Below, piece by piece: positions 657 to 47,403 of a stretch of 49,149 nucleotides of DNA (its first letter is position 1; every line of letters starts with the position of its first letter). A program made the translations under genes and the position numbers. The stretch comes from a virus. The notes beneath the pieces were generated by a model. The model made no database searches and was not told the origin of the DNA. It was given only the letters and a program-made list of their open reading frames with translations. The stretch lies in IMG/VR virus record IMGVR_UViG_3300023220_000261, positions 1-49,149 of that record. The stretch is one strand, 5' to 3'.

Positions 657-1364
657 ATGGCGTTAAAAACCAAAAAAGAATTTGCAGCAGATTGTGGTAT
701 TTCATCACGACACATTTCAACATATGTTGGCAGGCGTCAAATTGTTCTGACTGAGGAAGGTAAGATTGATGACAAGAACGAAATCAATTATGCATTTCTG
801 ATTGACAAAGGATATAACCAGGTAAAGAAAACCAACGGCCAAGGGAAAAAAGCACCGGCAAAGAAGGCCAAACCGAAACCAAAGCCATCGGTATCCAAGG
901 GTAAAACCGAAAAACCGAAGCCAGAACCAAAACCCGAAGTCAAAAAGCCGAGGGTATTGACAGCGGCCGAGAAAGAAGTGAAGGCTAATGTTGAGTATTT
1001 AGCCTCGTTGGATAAAGCACAAAAGGAACATACCGTTTCAAAAACAAATCATGAAGCCGAGATAAAACGGATTCAGATGGAAAAGTTGCAAGGTAAATTG
1101 ATCCCGACCGATTTGGTCACGTCAGTTATCCAGTTGCAAGCCGAGTCATTAAAGACCGCTTACCATGAAGCCGTTGAGAAACTAATTATCATCATTGGCC
1201 AAAAGAAAAAGTTGTCTAACAAAGACACGGCCGAGATCAGAAAAAAATTAACCGGACAAATTAACGATGCGATCAATTCGGGCCTGGAGGAAAGCCAAAA
1301 AGGAATCAAACGCATTGTCAAAGAATACTCTGAAAGCCGGGGTGTTGGAGAAAGTAAAACATAA
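657..1364 (+). CDS. terminase small subunit, Nu1-like (putative)
   Basis: 235 residues from the ATG at 657; a TTG at 630 would add nine. The N-terminal part (AADCGISSRHISTYVGRR) looks like a helix-turn-helix. A long Lys/Pro-rich linker (about residues 70-105) follows. The C-terminal half is helical and charged with the motif GKLIPTDLVTSVI, which resembles the segment after the DNA-binding domain in lambda Nu1-type small terminases. The protein would recognise phage DNA for packaging and recruit the large subunit, whose gene is 1.5 kb downstream and belongs to the matching GpA family. The call rests on fold-like features and position, not a strong signature. The four small cassette-like genes separating it from the large subunit are unusual. 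Confidence 0.6.
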   Translation: MALKTKKEFAADCGISSRHISTYVGRRQIVLTEEGKIDDKNEINYAFLIDKGYNQVKKTNGQGKKAPAKKAKPKPKPSVSKGKTEKPKPEPKPEVKKPRVLTAAEKEVKANVEYLASLDKAQKEHTVSKTNHEAEIKRIQMEKLQGKLIPTDLVTSVIQLQAESLKTAYHEAVEKLIIIIGQKKKLSNKDTAEIRKKLTGQINDAINSGLEESQKGIKRIVKEYSESRGVGESKT

Positions 1365-1398: not shown

Positions 1399-1767
1399 AT
1401 GAACAACCTAGAAGAAATACAATCGAAAATATTGAATGATGATGATTTTGATTTTTATGCTGTCATCATAGAAAACGACATTTTAATTATTGAAGATGAA
1501 TACGAGATGTCAGAGGACGAAAAAAATTCTGATGATTGTTGCGATGTTGCGCGGGAAAATGGCGAAATGATTGTTAGGAAATTCCCGGAATTGGAGGTGT
1601 TCAATTACTACTGTCATAGAAGTAAGTACGCAATAGTTGAATTGAAATCAACCATACACACTACCAGCGACATGTTGCAATTGTGTTATAATTATATTCA
1701 AAAAAATCAAGGTAGTGATGAACGGACATCACTTCTAAACGAACTCGAAAAGATGGGGTGTATATAA
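1399..1767 (+). CDS. acidic hypothetical protein, first cassette-like gene
   Basis: 122 residues from the ATG at 1399; an in-frame extension back to 1267 would overlap the small terminase and is less likely. The product is strongly acidic (runs such as DDDDFDFY and MSEDEKNSDD) and has no recognised domain. Its stop codon is part of the first TAACG-type attC-like sequence, the arrangement seen in integron gene cassettes, where one short gene is followed closely by its recombination site. Function unknown. Confidence 0.6.
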   Translation: MNNLEEIQSKILNDDDFDFYAVIIENDILIIEDEYEMSEDEKNSDDCCDVARENGEMIVRKFPELEVFNYYCHRSKYAIVELKSTIHTTSDMLQLCYNYIQKNQGSDERTSLLNELEKMGCI

Positions 1768-1857
1768 CGGTTTGGCTATGATTATGTAGCCTTGAAATAC
1801 AAAACTTTGAATTAAATATAAACTTTAATAAGGGTATTAATTATAGCCCTTGTTAGC
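1763..1857 (+). repeat. attC-like imperfect palindrome 1
   Basis: TAAC at 1765-1768 faces GTTAGC at 1852-1857. Inside, GGCTAT (1774-1779) pairs with ATAGCC (1843-1848), ATTA with TAAT, and CCTT (1790-1793) with AAGG (1830-1833), leaving an AT-rich centre. The outer AAC/GTT pair plus an inner stem with mismatches is the layout of integron attC sites. It begins at the stop codon of one small gene and ends 13 bases before the next ATG. Confidence 0.55.
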
Positions 1858-1870
1858 AACTTTTAAAATT

Positions 1871-2065
1871 ATGGAATGTGTAGTATGTAAAACAAAAATT
1901 GAACAAGAAGAGGTTTCTCAATACGCTGCTTACGGTGGATTACCTTCGCCTTGTTGTAAAACCTGCTTTGAAGTAAATGATTATAGTATAAAATCTATTG
2001 AGGAATTACAGATTAAAAGTTTAATCCGTAGAGCAAATGATTTAGAGGACAGTAAAAGCGAATAA
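1871..2065 (+). CDS. small zinc-binding-like protein, cassette gene
   Basis: 64 residues from the ATG at 1871; a TTG at 1850 is possible but lies inside the palindrome. Two cysteine clusters, CVVC near the N-terminus and CCKTC near residue 30, suggest one zinc site. The C-terminal half is helical and charged. The leader GTTAGCAACTTTTAAAATT resembles the leader of the 2821 gene, as expected for a shared cassette boundary. Function unknown. Confidence 0.6.
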   Translation: MECVVCKTKIEQEEVSQYAAYGGLPSPCCKTCFEVNDYSIKSIEELQIKSLIRRANDLEDSKSE

Positions 2066-2076
2066 TTTTTATTGTT

Positions 2077-2110
2077 GCTAACGGTCGTGGGTAGTGTTAG
2101 TATTTGCGAC
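2077..2110 (+). repeat. attC-like palindrome 2 (short form)
   Basis: CTAAC (2078-2082) faces GTTAG (2096-2100) as a perfect 5-bp inverted repeat, and GTCG (2084-2087) can pair with CGAC (2107-2110). The TAACGGTCGTGGGTA segment matches the other boundary sequences (TAACGsT followed by GG and TA). It lies 11 bases after the stop of the 1871 gene and is shorter than sites 1 and 4, so it may be degraded. Confidence 0.4.
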
Positions 2111-2127
2111 TTAACTGATAAAATATT

Positions 2128-2400
2128 ATGAAAGCAATAGACAGAAAATTATTATTTCACTTAGTAGATATTGTGTGGGGTGTTGCCCATGAAGACGAAA
2201 GCGTACCATCAACTGAATGGGCTAGAGAAATGATACAAAAAGCAATAGAAAGGAGACGAGGGGAGAAATATTCTAAGCAAAAATTAATTCTACCTGATGT
2301 TATTGTGCCGAAGGGTACGGTTTGCGGTCTATGCAAAGAAACTAGAAGTAAAGATTATATGTGCGAGTATGAAGACTGTGAATGGTATGTAGGCAAATAG
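2128..2400 (+). CDS. hypothetical protein with C-terminal Cys cluster, cassette gene
   Basis: 90 residues. The N-terminal half is predicted helical (AREMIQKAIERRRG). The C-terminus carries CGLC, then two single cysteines (CEYEDC), spaced like a small zinc ribbon. No known family was recognised. The gene stands alone between two TAACG-type boundary sequences and has AT-rich leaders, like its neighbours. Its composition is not obviously different from the phage genes. Confidence 0.6.
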   Translation: MKAIDRKLLFHLVDIVWGVAHEDESVPSTEWAREMIQKAIERRRGEKYSKQKLILPDVIVPKGTVCGLCKETRSKDYMCEYEDCEWYVGK

Positions 2401-2415
2401 CAAACTAATGCACTC

Positions 2416-2436
2416 TAACGCTGTGGCTATATCTAG
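2416..2436 (+). repeat. attC-like half site 3 (degenerate)
   Basis: TAACGCTGTGGCTATATCT begins 15 bases after the stop of the 2128 gene and matches the 5' halves of the other three boundary sequences (compare TAACGGTTTGGCTATGATT at 1765). No GTTAG partner is present downstream, so only one half is recognisable. Confidence 0.35.
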
Positions 2437-2462
2437 TTTTTTAAACGATTAAATAAGGAAAT

Positions 2463-2735
2463 ATGGAATTTTACGAATTTTTAAGAAAAAGAGAAAGCGG
2501 ATTAATTGACGCTATAGGATTAAAAAGCTTCAAGGAGGAAAAAGTATATTTTGTTAATGAAGTTGAAATCTTAGTGGGGCAATATCTTGAGTTTAAAAAA
2601 TTGGATATAGCTGATGTTAGGCAGCAAAGCGAACTGTTGCCTATTGAATTTATTGAGTGGTACTCTGGTATGGAAAAACAAAAGATTTTGAATGCCATCA
2701 AACGGTGGAGGAAAGAGAAAGGCAATAGTGCCTAA
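2463..2735 (+). CDS. hypothetical protein, cassette gene
   Basis: 90 residues, mixed charge, no cysteines and no signal peptide. The C-terminus is a basic amphipathic helix (KILNAIKRWRKEKG). No domain was recognised. The stop codon TAA at 2733-2735 is itself the first half of the fourth attC-like palindrome, so gene and boundary sequence are fused exactly as in a compact gene cassette. Confidence 0.6.
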   Translation: MEFYEFLRKRESGLIDAIGLKSFKEEKVYFVNEVEILVGQYLEFKKLDIADVRQQSELLPIEFIEWYSGMEKQKILNAIKRWRKEKGNSA

Positions 2736-2801
2736 CGCTGAGGTATTCACAAACGTTAAGTGTACCCCGTTTTAGGGGTTGTGTAATTACCGAATGTTAG
2801 C
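2731..2801 (+). repeat. attC-like palindrome 4 (best structured)
   Basis: CCTAAC (2731-2736, fitting RYYYAAC with its preceding G) faces GTTAG (2796-2800). GGTA (2742-2745) pairs with TACC (2788-2791), and a perfect central stem ACCCC (2764-2768) / GGGGT (2775-2779) closes a GTTTTA loop. Outer core, inner box and terminal stem, with unpaired bases between, match the attC architecture. The central hairpin could also act as a weak transcription stop. Confidence 0.55.
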
Positions 2802-2820
2802 ATAAACAAAATTTTAAACA

Positions 2821-2910
2821 ATGTCAATAGTCGTATTTATATATATGGTAGTTGTGTTGGCCTCATACGGTTACCACTTTGCTGAATTATTGTGTCGAAT
2901 AACAGATTAA
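2821..2910 (+). CDS. 29-residue membrane peptide
   Basis: A 29-residue reading frame with a hydrophobic stretch (VVFIYMVVVLASYG) long enough for one membrane span, ending six bases before the terminase ATG. Its leader (GTTAGCATA, then AAAATTTTAAACA, then ATG) resembles the leader of the 1871 gene. Nothing is known about it. The coding call rests on its tight placement and leader only. Confidence 0.4.
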   Translation: MSIVVFIYMVVVLASYGYHFAELLCRITD

Positions 2911-2916
2911 ATATAA

Positions 2917-4935
2917 ATGAGTTATTTAGAAAGAGAAATATCTAAGCTTTTCGAAGCGACAAAGGTCTACATGTCTGACATATCACCATCCGAATGGTAT
3001 GAAAAGAATATGACTATGCCGCGAGGTAGTGCGTTTCCCGGCAAATTTTCCTTTGATTTAACACCTTATTGGCGTGAACCGTTGGATTGTGCGAGCCCAT
3101 TGCACCCGGCGAAAGAGGTGAGTATCATGAAAGGTGCTCAATTAGGTGGGACAGTTGCCGTTTTAAACCCTATTGTTGGTTATACAATAGCCATTCACCC
3201 TGGTAATATCATGTTTTTAACTGGGCATTCGGACCTTTCAGAGGCTTCAATGCTCAAAATTGATACGATGATTGACAATTGCGGCATGCGACCAATGATA
3301 AAATCAAACATCCTACGCGCTAAAAACAGTAGATCCGGTGACACAAACAAGAGTAAAGAGTTTGCCGGCGGTGATTTAAAGTCCGGAAGCGTGACAAATC
3401 ACAACTTATTGCGGCAACATGACGTGATGATTATGATTGTTGATGATTATGATGCTGCACCATCCAGTTCGAAACATGCCGGCGCCACTCGGGAACTAGT
3501 ACAAAAAAGGACATCGGCATTTGCCCACAAGAAAAAAATCTATTGGGTGAGCTCTCCACAAATAAAAGGGTCCTCAAATATCGAAGAGGTTTTTCTATTA
3601 GGTGACCAACGTTACTATCATGTGCCGTGTCCTAAGTGCGGCGACCATATAAGATTGGAATGGATCATTAGCATTGAAGGAACGGACGGCAAAGAAAAGG
3701 GCGGTATCTACTGGAAACGCGACAAACATGGCCGTGTTTTGAAAAATAGTGTTGGTTATGTGTGTCAAAAATGTAGCGGATTCTTTACTGAGGGCCTAAA
3801 ATATGAAATGAATTTGGCTGGAATGTGGGAACCATCGGCAGTTGCGAAGGAAGAGGACCATTATAGTTATCAAATAAGTTCTATTTATGCACCTCCAGGC
3901 ATGGAAAGTTGGGCTCATTACGCGCAACAATACGATAATTGTAACCCTGAAGGTGGTAAACGGCACGAAAAAAAGCACCAAACGTTCATGAATGTGGTGT
4001 TGGGTTTGCCATATAAGCAGAAAGGAAGCGCGGTTGAAGCCAATGTCCTGCAAAAAAACATACGCAATTACGAGATTAACGATATTCCGGACAAGATGAG
4101 TAAGGACGATGGCAATGGACACATTATATTATTAACGTGTGCATGTGACCTTAATGGTAAAGTTGAAGATGCCCGGCTAGATTACGAGGTTGTTGGTTGG
4201 TCTGAAACCGGTGCCAGTTATTCAATAACACATGGAAGCATTGGCACATTCATTCCAAGAGAGGGTGCGAAAAAGAAAAAAGTCGATCGTGAACGCTGGA
4301 CCTATGAACCAAACAAAGAAAATAGTGTTTGGCCGGAATACAATAAAATTCTGGATACAGTCTTTACAACTGCAGACGGTAGGAAAATGAAAATATTCAT
4401 GTCGGGCGTTGATACCGGGTTTTTTACACAGTACGCATATGACTTCATGGATAAATCAAATTTTAGTATTGTTGGATTGAAGGGAAACAAAGAAGAAGAG
4501 TTTGTAAGAGTTGGAATTGATTTGCCGACATTTAAACCGGCACGTGAAAGACGAAATCTGTATTTGGTTGAAGTAAATATGATCAAAGATCAATTGGCGA
4601 ATGATATAGAATTAAAATGGGATAGTGGAAATGATGCTGCGCAACCTCCTGGGTTTCTTAATTTCCCAACGCCATCTGCAGGCCTTTATTTATTCAGCAA
4701 TTTTTTCAGTCATTATGAAGGGGAACACCGGATTGTAGAAATGAAAGATGACAAAACAGTTTCTTCAACCTGGGTAAAGAAAACAAGCACGTCACAAAAT
4801 CACCTTTGGGATTGTCGCGTATATAATATTGTGATGAAACACATAATTACAGGCATGTACGCGAAAGAATTGGGACTAAAAGAATTCACATGGCATGATT
4901 ACGTTAGTATGTTGATGCAATCCGTTAAACAATAG
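2917..4935 (+). CDS. terminase large subunit, GpA family
   Basis: 672 residues, the usual length for lambda gpA-type terminases. It pumps DNA into the prohead using ATP and cuts the concatemer. Visible in order: the GpA-type Walker A (KGAQLGGT, residues 72-79), Walker B (MIVDDYDA, 173-180), a zinc ribbon (CPKC at 238-241, CQKC at 283-286), and the RNase-H-like nuclease with DLNGKVEDARLDYEVVGW (Asp 411) and GVDTGFFTQYAYDF (Asp 499). A C-terminal WDCRVY segment is typical of the family. The usual DE of Walker B is DD here. Its partners are the Nu1-like protein upstream and the lambda-type portal at 19912. Family assignment is secure. Confidence 0.95.
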   Translation: MSYLEREISKLFEATKVYMSDISPSEWYEKNMTMPRGSAFPGKFSFDLTPYWREPLDCASPLHPAKEVSIMKGAQLGGTVAVLNPIVGYTIAIHPGNIMFLTGHSDLSEASMLKIDTMIDNCGMRPMIKSNILRAKNSRSGDTNKSKEFAGGDLKSGSVTNHNLLRQHDVMIMIVDDYDAAPSSSKHAGATRELVQKRTSAFAHKKKIYWVSSPQIKGSSNIEEVFLLGDQRYYHVPCPKCGDHIRLEWIISIEGTDGKEKGGIYWKRDKHGRVLKNSVGYVCQKCSGFFTEGLKYEMNLAGMWEPSAVAKEEDHYSYQISSIYAPPGMESWAHYAQQYDNCNPEGGKRHEKKHQTFMNVVLGLPYKQKGSAVEANVLQKNIRNYEINDIPDKMSKDDGNGHIILLTCACDLNGKVEDARLDYEVVGWSETGASYSITHGSIGTFIPREGAKKKKVDRERWTYEPNKENSVWPEYNKILDTVFTTADGRKMKIFMSGVDTGFFTQYAYDFMDKSNFSIVGLKGNKEEEFVRVGIDLPTFKPARERRNLYLVEVNMIKDQLANDIELKWDSGNDAAQPPGFLNFPTPSAGLYLFSNFFSHYEGEHRIVEMKDDKTVSSTWVKKTSTSQNHLWDCRVYNIVMKHIITGMYAKELGLKEFTWHDYVSMLMQSVKQ

Positions 4936-5030: not shown

Positions 5031-6545
5031 ATGGCAAATGACGCTGTTGGACTGGAAAGAATATCCAAAGTTGTTGGATACAAATTAGTAAAAGGCAATT
5101 TCCTTGAAGTAACCCCAAATTTGCCACAGAGGATAGCAATTCTTGCAGAAGCAAACACGGCTAATCAAGGATCTTTAGACTTAACCCCAAAAGAACTTAC
5201 CTCGGCACAAGCCGCCGGTGAACTTTATGGTTTTGGTTCTCCGATATATAATATAATGAGAATTCTTAGACCGAACCAGGGTGTTGGTGTTGGTGGAATT
5301 CCTACTGTTGTTTATCCACAGGCCGTTGCCGGTGGTGCTGTTGCAAATGAAACAGAAGTCACCCCGGTTGGAACAGCCACTAAAAATGGTACACATACAT
5401 TAAAAATTGCCGGCAGAAATGGTGTCGATGGTCTGTTTTATGATATCAATATTGTTGTTGGTGATTCCATTGCAACAGTTTCAACTAAAATTGCCGATGC
5501 AATTCAAGCCGTACTTAGTGCGCCATGTAATGCAGTTGCAACCGCTACAGAAGCAACCTTAACAGCAAAATGGGCAGGTTTGACATCTGAAGAAATGGTT
5601 GTTTCGGTTGATTTGAATGACACCGATCTCGGAATTACTTATGTTGTTGCCGTTACCGATAATGGTCTCGGCACACCTTCAATTGCCGCTGCGCTTGCTT
5701 TATTTGGCAATAATTGGAACACGGTGGTTATCAATTCTTATGGAACGGTTAGTGCCGCTATTGATACGCTCGAAGCGTTCAACGGTATTCCAGATCCTTT
5801 GGTGCCTACTGGTAGATATGTTGGAATTGTATTCAAACCATTCATTGCGTTTACCGGATCTTTGGCAGATGATGATACAACGTTCACAGATGCGAAAAAA
5901 GACGAGGTTACTATTGCACTTTGCCCTGCTCCTTTGAGCACCGGGTTCACGGCTGAGGCCGCTGCAAATATGGCCGCGTTATACGTGAGAGTTGCGCAAG
6001 ATAATCCGCACTTGGATGTTTCAGGTTTATCATATCCGGATATGCCAACGCCAAACACAATTGGAAGTATGGAAACTTACGAAAATCGTGATGCGTTTGT
6101 GAAAAAAGGAAGTTCTACAGTTGAACTTTCGAACGGAGTGTATAAAGTTGCTGATTTCGTAACTACCTACCATCCGGACGGTGAATTGCCTCCACAATTC
6201 AGATATGTGAGAAACTTGAATCTTGATTTCAATATCAGGTTTGGATATTTCTTACTTGAAGAAATTAATGTTGTGGATCATGTAATTGCCAATGATGATG
6301 ATATAGTTACAGCGAGCACCGTTGTTAAACCAAAGCAATGGCGACAAATATTATTTAGATTCGCTCAGGATCTTTCTCAAAGAGCTTTGATTGTTGATCC
6401 TGCATTTATGCAAGATTCAATAACGGTTGATATCAGTACTACCAATCCGGATAGGTTAGAAACCTTTTTCAGATACAAAAGAACTGGTTTTGCAAGAATA
6501 TCCTCCACAATTGCGGAGGCTGGTTTTAATTTTGGAACAGTTTAA
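5031..6545 (+). CDS. contractile tail sheath protein (Mu gpL-like)
   Basis: 504 residues. The start of the protein (segment QAAGELYGFGSPIYNIMRIL near residues 60-80) is characteristic of Mu gpL-type sheath subunits. The C-terminal part, with LNLDFNIRFGYFLLEE and RFAQDLSQRALIVDPAFMQDS, forms the conserved sheath domain of extended and contracted tails. The central part (about 95-200) is Thr/Ala/Val-rich, like an inserted surface domain. It encloses the tube made by the next gene and drives injection by contracting. It shows that the phage has a contractile tail. Confidence 0.92.
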   Translation: MANDAVGLERISKVVGYKLVKGNFLEVTPNLPQRIAILAEANTANQGSLDLTPKELTSAQAAGELYGFGSPIYNIMRILRPNQGVGVGGIPTVVYPQAVAGGAVANETEVTPVGTATKNGTHTLKIAGRNGVDGLFYDINIVVGDSIATVSTKIADAIQAVLSAPCNAVATATEATLTAKWAGLTSEEMVVSVDLNDTDLGITYVVAVTDNGLGTPSIAAALALFGNNWNTVVINSYGTVSAAIDTLEAFNGIPDPLVPTGRYVGIVFKPFIAFTGSLADDDTTFTDAKKDEVTIALCPAPLSTGFTAEAAANMAALYVRVAQDNPHLDVSGLSYPDMPTPNTIGSMETYENRDAFVKKGSSTVELSNGVYKVADFVTTYHPDGELPPQFRYVRNLNLDFNIRFGYFLLEEINVVDHVIANDDDIVTASTVVKPKQWRQILFRFAQDLSQRALIVDPAFMQDSITVDISTTNPDRLETFFRYKRTGFARISSTIAEAGFNFGTV

Positions 6546-7429: not shown

Positions 7430-7602
7430 ATAAAGGTTCTCATGACAACATGGTAAAAAGTGTTGTCAGAGAACATCACTGGTCACCAGAAATCATAAAA
7501 GAATTATTTCATGACAACATAGATTATTTAGGGCTTGTATATTGGTATAATGACGTGTGTGAGGTTATTGATGACGTAAAAAATAAGAAACCAAAAACAT
7601 AA
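7423..7602 (+). CDS. tail assembly chaperone extension, made by -1 frameshift
   Basis: The frame one base back is open from the T-run at 7417-7423 to the TAA at 7600-7602 and adds 59 residues (SINKGSHDNMVKSVV, continuing to NKKPKT) to the 132-residue chaperone. The heptamer T TTT TTT is in the correct register for a -1 slip, giving a fusion of about 190 residues like lambda gpGT. The stop TAA at 7600 is two bases before the ATG of the tape measure. An internal ATG at 7450 could alternatively start a 50-residue separate protein. Confidence 0.75.
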   Translation, partial: SINKGSHDNMVKSVVREHHWSPEIIKELFHDNIDYLGLVYWYNDVCEVIDDVKNKKPKT

Positions 7603-9639
7603 ATGGCAGCAGCGTTCACCATACCCTCAATTTTCACAGCAGTAGATAAATTTACCAGACCTGTCAATAAAATGGGCGCGGCCACTCAACGGTTTGCGGC
7701 CAAAGCTCAAGTTGCGGTTTCTCGTAGTGAGCGTGCATTCCGTAGATTGATGGCTCCATTGCGGGGCATAAACAAGTTGCTAGGAGGCTTCGGATTATTA
7801 GTCGGAGGGGCTTTAATTGTTGGTGCTATAACCAACACAATCAATATAATAAAGGATTTCGAACAGGCCAACGCCAATTTGTCGTCAATCATGGCGACCG
7901 CTACAGGTCCACAACTCAAATCGTTAAGTGATGATGCCATAAGATTAGGGGCTACAACTGCCAGATCAGCAATTGAAGTTGTCGGTTTACAGGAAGCTTT
8001 TGCCCGTTTAGGATTCGAAACACCTCAGATATTGAACATGACTGAGGCAACAATTTCCGGTTCTATTGCGATGAATGCCGAATTGGGGCAAACCGCTGAA
8101 TTGGTGGGTGCAATGGTTAGAACATTTAATGATTTTAGTTCGCTTGATACGCCTAAAATCATCGATCAAATGACAACAGCAACGCAAAAATCAGCGTTGA
8201 ATTTCGAAAAATTACAAACATCATTACCAATTGTATCCGGTGCGGCTAATGCTGCAGGAATACCGTTCACTAAATTATTAGCGTTATTAGGTAAACTTTC
8301 AGATGCCGGTATTGATGCATCAAGTTCATCAACGGCCTTGAGAAATATATTCATTGAGAGTGCCGCGCAGGGTTTAAATTATGATCAGATCCTTCAAAAA
8401 ATTGTCAAGGACCAGGACAAACTTACAGCGGCAAATGATGAATTTGGCAAACGTGCGGCCGTGTCTGCAAGTATTCTTGCAAATAACATTGCTCAAACAG
8501 CCGAACTTGATAAAACAATACAAGGTGCCGCCGGAAGTGCAAAAATTGCTGCAGACAAACAATTGAAAACGCTTAATGGTGCATTGACCATTTTGAGTAG
8601 TTCATATGAGGGTTTCATTCTCAGTTTAGAAAATGGAACAGGTCCTTTTGCTAAAACTCTAACTACAATAGTTCAAGTCACCTCGCAAATGTTAAGTTTG
8701 GCGAGCGGTTCGGCAGTTGCAACTTCTGAATTGGATGACCAACAAAAGAAAATACGTTCCATGGCCGAAACTGGATTGTTTTGGTTGAAAGTATTAGGTT
8801 CCGTTATTGCTGCAATTGTTGCTTTTAAAATTGCGATAGTTGCAACTAAAATTGCACTAGTTGTTTATAATATTGCGCTCGGTGTTATGGGCGCGTTGAG
8901 TGGAACAGCAAGTATTGCTATTGGTGGGAACGCCATTGCATTGGGCGCATACAAAGTTGCGGCTTTCATTGCGGCAGGTGCCACTAAATTGTTTAGTGCG
9001 GCTCAATTTATTTTGAATATCGCGTTGAACGCCAACCCTATTGGATTAGTTGTCATTGCAATTGCAGCATTGGTTGGAATTGTTGCATTAGTGATCAATA
9101 AATATGATGAATGGGGTGCCGCTTTGACCTTGATTTTAGGTCCTTTGGGTATAATAATCAATTTGGTTCAAGCATTTAGACGAAATTGGGAGGCTATCAG
9201 CAATGCATTCACAAGTCAAGGAATAATTGCCGGGTTGAAAGCCATCGGTTTAACGATACTCGATGCATTATTATTTCCTTTAGAACAGGTACTTGGATTA
9301 ATGACTGCAATACCAGGAGTCGGGAAACTAGCTGAAAACGCTTTGAAAGGTGTTGCTTTGGGTAGGAAAATTATTGAATTCAAATTGAATGAAAACAATG
9401 TTGATAAGTTTGCCAATGAAACAGCCGGTGCCGTAACTAATACCGGTGAAAATGAATCTCAAGTGCCTCTTGTAAATCCGGAATCGGCCAAACAAGAGTC
9501 ATTCAAAGAATCGATACTTGAACAACGACAAAACGTATCAATTGATATAAATGATAATACCAACGGCAGGGCATCCGTTGAAAGTGATAATGATTTTGTG
9601 CCTGTTAAATTAACATCGACATTTGCATTTGGAGGATAA
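7603..9639 (+). CDS. tail tape measure protein (TP901-type core)
   Basis: 678 residues. Residues about 85-330 form the conserved phage tape-measure domain (FEQANANLSSIMATATG, then ARSAIEVVGLQEAFARLGF and SASILANNIAQTAELD). A hydrophobic, Ala/Ile-rich region at about 390-530 would form the membrane-active part used during DNA entry. The start is amphipathic and basic, and the end is polar. Tape-measure length sets tail length: at about 0.15 nm per residue a tail near 100 nm is expected, an inference. It directly follows the frameshifting chaperone gene that serves it. Confidence 0.92.
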   Translation: MAAAFTIPSIFTAVDKFTRPVNKMGAATQRFAAKAQVAVSRSERAFRRLMAPLRGINKLLGGFGLLVGGALIVGAITNTINIIKDFEQANANLSSIMATATGPQLKSLSDDAIRLGATTARSAIEVVGLQEAFARLGFETPQILNMTEATISGSIAMNAELGQTAELVGAMVRTFNDFSSLDTPKIIDQMTTATQKSALNFEKLQTSLPIVSGAANAAGIPFTKLLALLGKLSDAGIDASSSSTALRNIFIESAAQGLNYDQILQKIVKDQDKLTAANDEFGKRAAVSASILANNIAQTAELDKTIQGAAGSAKIAADKQLKTLNGALTILSSSYEGFILSLENGTGPFAKTLTTIVQVTSQMLSLASGSAVATSELDDQQKKIRSMAETGLFWLKVLGSVIAAIVAFKIAIVATKIALVVYNIALGVMGALSGTASIAIGGNAIALGAYKVAAFIAAGATKLFSAAQFILNIALNANPIGLVVIAIAALVGIVALVINKYDEWGAALTLILGPLGIIINLVQAFRRNWEAISNAFTSQGIIAGLKAIGLTILDALLFPLEQVLGLMTAIPGVGKLAENALKGVALGRKIIEFKLNENNVDKFANETAGAVTNTGENESQVPLVNPESAKQESFKESILEQRQNVSIDINDNTNGRASVESDNDFVPVKLTSTFAFGG

Positions 9640-47198: not shown

Positions 47199-47403
47199 AG
47201 GTGTGTCAAATTCATCTTGACACACCTATCTTGACACACTGACACACCTCGGTATAAGTGTGTCAATATAGGGGCGTGTCAGGTTATTAATACCCCCCTC
47301 TATAGAGGGGGTATATATATAACAACCCGACACACTCCCCAATTATAAAACACACGCTTTACCATGTTTGTTGTATTAGGGTAAAAATATTAAACTTGAC
47401 ACG
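47199..47403. repeat. TTGACACACC repeat region, candidate origin or operator array
   Basis: A 224-base gene-free stretch. TGACACA or its complement TGTGTCA occurs at 47202, 47218, 47232, 47240 and 47259, and one-mismatch copies at 47275, 47328 and 47397. The first two form a perfect 11-bp inverted repeat (AGGTGTGTCAA, seven bases, TTGACACACCT; 47199-47227). An AT-rich segment (TATATATATAA) and a hairpin lie within. Iteron-type origins and repressor arrays both look like this; replication genes are nearby. Confidence 0.6.
47290..47314. terminator. hairpin in repeat region
   Basis: ATACCCCCCTCTA and TAGAGGGGGTAT form a nearly perfect palindrome with one extra C. It is followed by TATATATAA rather than a T-run, so it may be a structural element of an origin instead of a terminator. 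Confidence 0.4.

Follow-up and report, generated by a model that had tools for sequence, protein, structure and literature searches.

A small, partly decayed cluster of attC-type sites and single genes between the terminase genes of a tailed phage

Four small genes, each followed by a TAACG motif, lie between the terminase small subunit (TerS) and large subunit (TerL) genes of a contractile-tailed phage, which raises the question of whether they are cassettes that enter and leave a packaging operon. The window analysed is the whole IMG/VR record of this phage (49,149 bases). All four genes and motifs named in the original prediction, which was made from the letters of the DNA, were present (Table 1). 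Among named phages, TerL is closest to that of Flavobacterium phages (37% identity), so the host is probably a Bacteroidota bacterium. Family searches with genes 1 to 4 gave no match to any family. Searches for relatives yielded almost nothing beyond a resemblance of the N-terminal half of gene 3 to a protein from two Klebsiella phages: gene 1 had no relative in phages and none was found for genes 2 and 4, so that none of genes 1, 2 and 4 could be shown at another place. Gene 1 is either a resident gene or an older cassette. The 29-aa ORF is probably resident, because relatives L002 and L005 also carry a small hydrophobic ORF at this place. We consider it likely that positions 1764-2802 represent a small, partly decayed integron-type cassette cluster whose genes are moved by a recombinase acting in trans.

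Table 1. Features of the window at and around the terminase genes.
Feature	Position	Strand	Basis
Terminase small subunit (TerS), left flank of the array	657..1364	+	phrog_5193 4.5e-26; phrog_57 1.1e-4
Gene 1, 122 aa; stop codon TAA forms the first 3 bases of site A	1399..1767	+	ORF
Site A, intact attC-type site	1764..1857	+	R1 68.1 bits, R2 71.2 bits
Gene 2, 64 aa, cysteine-rich	1871..2065	+	ORF
Site B, collapsed remnant	2078..2099	+	sequence; score at background
Gene 3, 90 aa	2128..2400	+	tblastn E 1e-3
Site C, 5' half only (TAACGCTGTGGCTATA)	2415..2430	+	sequence; score at background
Gene 4, 90 aa; stop codon TAA inside site D	2463..2735	+	ORF
Site D, probable attC-type site	2732..2802	+	anatomy; shuffles; R1 16.3 bits, R2 11.3 bits
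Hydrophobic ORF, 29 aa, just 5' of TerL	2821..2910	+	ORF
Terminase large subunit (TerL), GpA type, right flank	2917..4935	+	PF05876 2e-50; PF20454 6.5e-39
Tail sheath gene	5031-6545		family search

Site A (1765 TAACGGTTTGGCTATG...TATAGCCCTTGTTAGC 1857) contains R boxes (TAAC/GTTA), L boxes (GGCTAT/ATAGCC), a G·T mismatch and an inner stem. It was scored with two covariance models, R1, built from the sites of other phages only, with the window sequence held out, and R2, built from 109 sites. Its R1 match had an E-value of 5.3e-13, and the next best R1 match in the 49 kb window was at background level. The outer-box part of the R1 score is partly circular, because most of the early training sites were collected with a pattern copied from the outer boxes of site A; the sites from L001, from P12002L and from the later GTRTATG sets were fetched without these boxes. 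Inverted R''/R' and L''/L' repeats, two unpaired spacers and a variable loop are present in site A and its family, in site D by anatomy only, and are lacking in sites B and C. For the R' box, defined as GTTRRRY, site A reads GTTATAT and site D GTTAGGC on the canonical strand. By score and anatomy, site A is thus best taken as a true attC-type site, and it is the sole proven one in the window. Free folding of A or D gave no clear gain over shuffled sequences and CTAACG and GTTAGCA, counted alone, were not enriched in the window, so that the support for the sites is comparative. Nor did our own hairpin score single out A and D across the whole window, since coding stretches near 39.5 kb reach equal values. 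A search of Rfam gave no match.

Site D (2733 TAACGCTGAGGTATTCACAA...TTGTGTAATTACCGAATGTTAGC 2801) has the anatomy expected of such a site, with an 11-bp L stem (GGT-ATT-CACAA) and, on its 3' arm, two one-base bulges of the kind known from canonical attC sites; the A-type family has the conserved G·T mismatch in place of these bulged bases. Its scores were at background with R1 (E 0.32) and with R2 (E 4.1), the larger training set having failed to rescue it (11.3 bits). When the TerS-TerL gap was shuffled with its dinucleotide composition preserved, a pair of non-overlapping TAAC...GTTA hairpins equal in quality to A and D arose in 0.3% of cases and a single one in 10%, and we regard D as a probable attC-type site. 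In site B (TAACGGTCGTGGGTA-GTGTTAG), TAACG and an L-like half are joined directly and the inner arm with its hairpin is gone, whereas in site C the 3' half is missing at the point where gene 4 starts. Both score at background and look like decayed remnants that retain the 5' boxes only. Of the two full hairpins first proposed, A was upheld and D has the right form with a background score, while the other two, described as shorter or degenerate, are remnants. The stop codons at 1765 and 2733 were correctly placed within sites (A and D, respectively). A covariance search, as suggested at that time, returned A strongly with R1 and R2 and left B, C and D at background. The similar leaders said to follow GTTAGC share GTTAGCA and are otherwise just A/T-rich. 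A cassette array without an integrase remains the best reading of the locus, with A alone proven, D probable, and B and C as remnants.

The first pattern, taken from the outer boxes of site A, matched six IMG/VR contigs, and relaxed forms added more. The matches retained are intergenic hairpins of 81-92 nt with a common layout, in which TAACG is followed by four unpaired bases, a paired stretch of six (GGCTAT or similar), the G·T mismatch, an inner stem, the partner boxes and TGTTAGC. Matches in L023, L025, L027, L029, L030 and L031 look like chance occurrences within coding sequence and were dropped. The inner stem was absent from the search pattern, and inner arms paired better with their own partner (7.5) than with the partners from other sites (2.6; permutation p < 5e-5). 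Among 12 sites from other phages, 99.4% of the cells pair, and 7 of the 13 pairs have changed on both sides. For the 109 viral sites, the pairing was 97.8%, with 296 double-sided changes as against 82 in shuffles; this alignment was made by fitting to the model and is biased in its favour. The family occurs in about 80 contigs of IMG/VR as well as in Bacteroidota chromosomal arrays. An initial view of the sites as phage-only was wrong, as R1 finds chromosomal sites in 21 of the 296 genomes searched from the phylum, to which the Chryseobacterium assembly G001 belongs. Strict A-type patterns gave nothing real in 84,980 genomes, because the loops of the chromosomal sites are mostly longer (about 130 nt); a pattern with a gap of 80-110 nt had no match in 198 genomes. 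Among the genomes checked, G227 (L160, L099) had the most R1 sites, 33 over several chromosomal places.

The orientation of the sites differs between chromosomes and phages. In arrays with IntI from this phylum (L054, L060, L068, L070), the cassette genes run against the TAACG...GTTAG strand, and so they do in the R1-type chromosomal arrays (L098-L109, excluding L105). Over all chromosomal loci, 41 sites were opposite and 6 were in the same direction, four of the latter in L105, which holds phage replication genes. In the first set of phage sites (41), 38 had the same direction as the genes, none was opposite, 2 were mixed and 1 was without neighbours; in a later set of contigs, fetched without regard to genes, the corresponding numbers were 125, 5, 6 and 8. 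Pooling of the clear cases gave 163 of 168 in the same direction. Duplicate contigs inflate these site counts; by locus, the later set comprised 53 same, 3 opposite and 5 unclear. The sites of the window phage are, correspondingly, inverted relative to the polarity of integron cassettes, and its genes do not point with attC polarity. One idea is that insertion behind stop codons (TAAC being GTTA on the other strand) sets the direction of the site, and that selection then keeps those genes that run with the operon. Because of the inversion, the mobile unit is not a gene plus the site after it, as had been assumed, but a site plus the following gene. Site A and gene 2 would make one such unit, with a boundary placed by analogy to unit differences in other phages.

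The comparison with related phages that had been proposed showed that the contents of the TerS-TerL gap differ in every relative compared, the closest included. In the nearest relative, L001 (TerL 78% identical), the gap contains a C5-methyltransferase-like gene (3273-4358) and none of the attC-type sites. Directly 3' of TerL, L001 instead carries three sites between small ORFs (22.9, 51.2 and 50.4 bits with R1). The first of them overlaps the stop codon of TerL, and a second C5-methyltransferase-like gene (7493-7846) comes after the sites at the contig end. Variable gap contents and an array behind TerL in L001 indicate that the cluster is not constant in the lineage. The combination of background scores and identical relatives that had been named as speaking against the cassette reading did not arise, with site A at 68.1 bits and varying gaps. 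No near-identical relative of the window phage was found, and no empty site was seen. In two relatives at 66% TerL identity (L003:3233-4153, L004:2693-3613), a distant tyrosine recombinase is encoded upstream of the terminase gene; as it scores only 27.6 bits with the array-type profile described below, these phages may be temperate.

Exact differences were found in another group of phages, whose members L016, L017, L018, L020, L021, L024 and L151 are nearly identical. In L016, a site (S1) and its gene, about 1.25 kb in all, precede a second site (S2). Exactly the S1 unit is lacking from L017, L020 and L021; the L020 junction reads TTGTGTACAAC|GTGCTAG, with the crossover within a shared ACAAC. 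L151 and L024 retain the S1 unit, which is joined there to a stray GTT within the gene upstream (L151 junction, GAGCAATTAAC|TTATTTG). Both crossovers (L020, L151) fall at the AAC end (G|TT when read from the opposite strand), a position that matches the prediction from integron chemistry if the TAACG...GTTAGC strand is the one that recombines. Integron integrases can insert at non-classical attG sites (GTT). The L151 junction resembles such an insertion, since a site is fused there to a stray GTT within a coding sequence, but it occurs in a phage, and only a candidate enzyme can be named for it. Segments that differ at a second place (L018:1895-3816 versus L020:4568-5596) have GTT and TAAC at their edges. 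Mobility, originally offered as inference, is thus more than that for the site family, since near-identical phages differ by exact units; for the window phage, the earlier caution stands.

These observations bear on the possibility that the cluster is dead cargo, imported once from a bacterial integron array by illegitimate recombination, with no site-specific recombination in the phage. The lack of an integrase in the record and the decay of two of the four sites would fit such an event, and a similar route was proposed for other phages in PMC9892861. However, exact units come and go among near-identical phages, and the polarity of phage sites is opposite to that of bacterial cassettes, which argues that they are not simply copied bacterial arrays. 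We judge this origin unlikely and favour a cluster whose genes are moved in trans.

No integron integrase or other recombinase is encoded in the 49,149-base record, so that the cluster is not a complete integron, which would have an intI gene with the IntI-specific domain plus attI. Of 10 array-bearing genomes examined, 8 encode an IntI-related tyrosine recombinase about 1-6 kb from an array. In each case it lies to the 3' side of the site strand, where IntI also stands in true integrons. All ten array recombinases lack the IntI-specific insert and, with 171-228 bits, stay below the TIGR02249 cut-off of 265 that marks integron integrases. In a tree, they fell outside the IntI clade (100/100) and outside the Xer-like group, and may form more than one clade. 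Most viral records were searched for recombinases in part, and at least five array-type enzymes were found 0.2-0.4 kb from the 3' side of a site in viral contigs: two in G412 and one each in L193 (8428-9234), L204 (6288-7121) and L224 (10072-10878), at a distance of 0.26-0.39 kb in the last three. The four of these enzymes that were not part of the profile scored 272-310 bits with the array-type profile (IntI at most 233, Xer-like at most 183). G412 is a phage-like sequence of 246 kb with about a dozen sites, two recombinases (L145:13342-14157 and L147:3721-4524), both with a site at a distance of a few hundred bases, and genes for a phage-type topoisomerase II, a DNA polymerase and SbcC; it is possibly a complete viral integron-like platform.

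The recombinase adjoining the site family is not the integron integrase first suggested, IntI proper, but a relative without the IntI-specific domain. It could still be argued that canonical IntI of the host acts on phage cassettes and that the array-type recombinase is a bystander, given that 105 of 395 genomes of the phylum carry IntI proper (over the cut-off) and that IntI1 works on phage attC sites in E. coli (PMC9892861). Yet it is the domain-less enzyme that adjoins the arrays, and in the two array genomes that also encode IntI (G039, G153), it is located on another contig. IntI proper was in none of the phage records tested. Such a role for IntI appears quite improbable to us. An action of the hairpins in RNA, as terminators, processing signals or translational control elements of the operon, would fit sites between co-directional genes and the G·T mismatch, which the sense RNA can accommodate as a wobble. 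Against this stand the occurrence of the same sites, with the same G·T strand, antisense to the genes in chromosomes, the unit boundaries at the R box rather than at the stem, and the proximity of the sites to recombinases, and we give this reading hardly any credence.

The mechanism we favour is a shuffling of cassettes by a tyrosine recombinase supplied in trans, either by the host or by a co-infecting phage. The mobile unit would consist of a folded-DNA recombination site and one short gene, reaching from AAC| of one site to the next AAC|. The likeliest enzyme would be the IntI-related recombinase without the IntI-specific domain that is found beside the sites in Bacteroidota chromosomes and a few phages; it would connect the G|TT of a folded site with that of a second site or with a stray phage GTT. 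Single genes could thus come or go without harm to the packaging operon, and may be of benefit to the phage in certain hosts or in the face of host defences. With the hairpins of two sites lost, genes 2 to 4 would be partly locked in. Which enzyme acts, and that it acted on the window phage, we infer from sequence. On a wider scale, the chances seem to us even that Bacteroidota and their phages share a non-IntI integron-like system, built on a distinct group of tyrosine recombinases that lack the IntI domain and on an attC family of its own, in which phages hold their own cassette pool of inverted polarity. This polarity would let genes drop in co-directionally, for instance behind phage stop codons, and a few phages would also carry the recombinase.

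Clusters of attC sites lacking an integrase (CALINs) were already reported for virulent phages by Qi et al. (2023; PMC9892861), in whose work five of six phage attC sites tested were active with IntI1. Two attC sites from the cluster of Polaribacter phage P12002L were tested there, and attC2 (numbering of that paper) recombined. In our analysis, two P12002L sites (NC_028924, 38031-38091 and 38875-38937), which may correspond to those of the paper, flank a methyltransferase gene and score 46.7 and 39.2 bits with R1, although they are among its training sites. The window cluster is like the P12002L CALIN in combining attC-type sites with small or methyltransferase genes in a tailed phage without an integrase. 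Measured against the CALIN definition (at least two attC sites by IntegronFinder, no IntI nearby), it has no IntI and, as scored with R1 and R2, one strong plus one weak site. It is probably a small, decaying CALIN, already a known feature of phages. What is new is the inverted polarity, the exact exchange of units between phages and the candidate recombinase. For P12002L, the available sections of PMC9892861 note divergent directions and describe no family-wide inverted polarity, unit exchange or recombinase. With chromosomal integrons (TIGR02249), the system shares folded sites in a single orientation, single-gene cassettes, a recombinase at one end and G|TT junctions; it differs in that the adjoining recombinase lacks the IntI-specific domain and that the phage genes run the opposite way relative to the site. 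A survey with IntegronFinder 2.0 listed one complete integron in Bacteroidetes proper, besides Chlorobi and Ignavibacteriae (PMC9024848), and a study of attC sources selected IntI by its additional domain (PMC8352920). As surveys define integrases by this domain, arrays with a domain-less recombinase would be counted as orphan clusters or missed. Our literature search, of incomplete coverage, found no report that links attC arrays to a domain-less recombinase. The shuffling of small accessory genes is well known in phages, but site-specific mechanisms behind it have seldom been observed; in the present case, units of one gene come and go at defined hairpins of phage genomes, and the candidate enzyme makes the question directly testable. 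Near the end of the record, the window also contains a strong inverted repeat (47220-47277; 26-nt arms, 81% complementary) that is unrelated to the attC-type sites.
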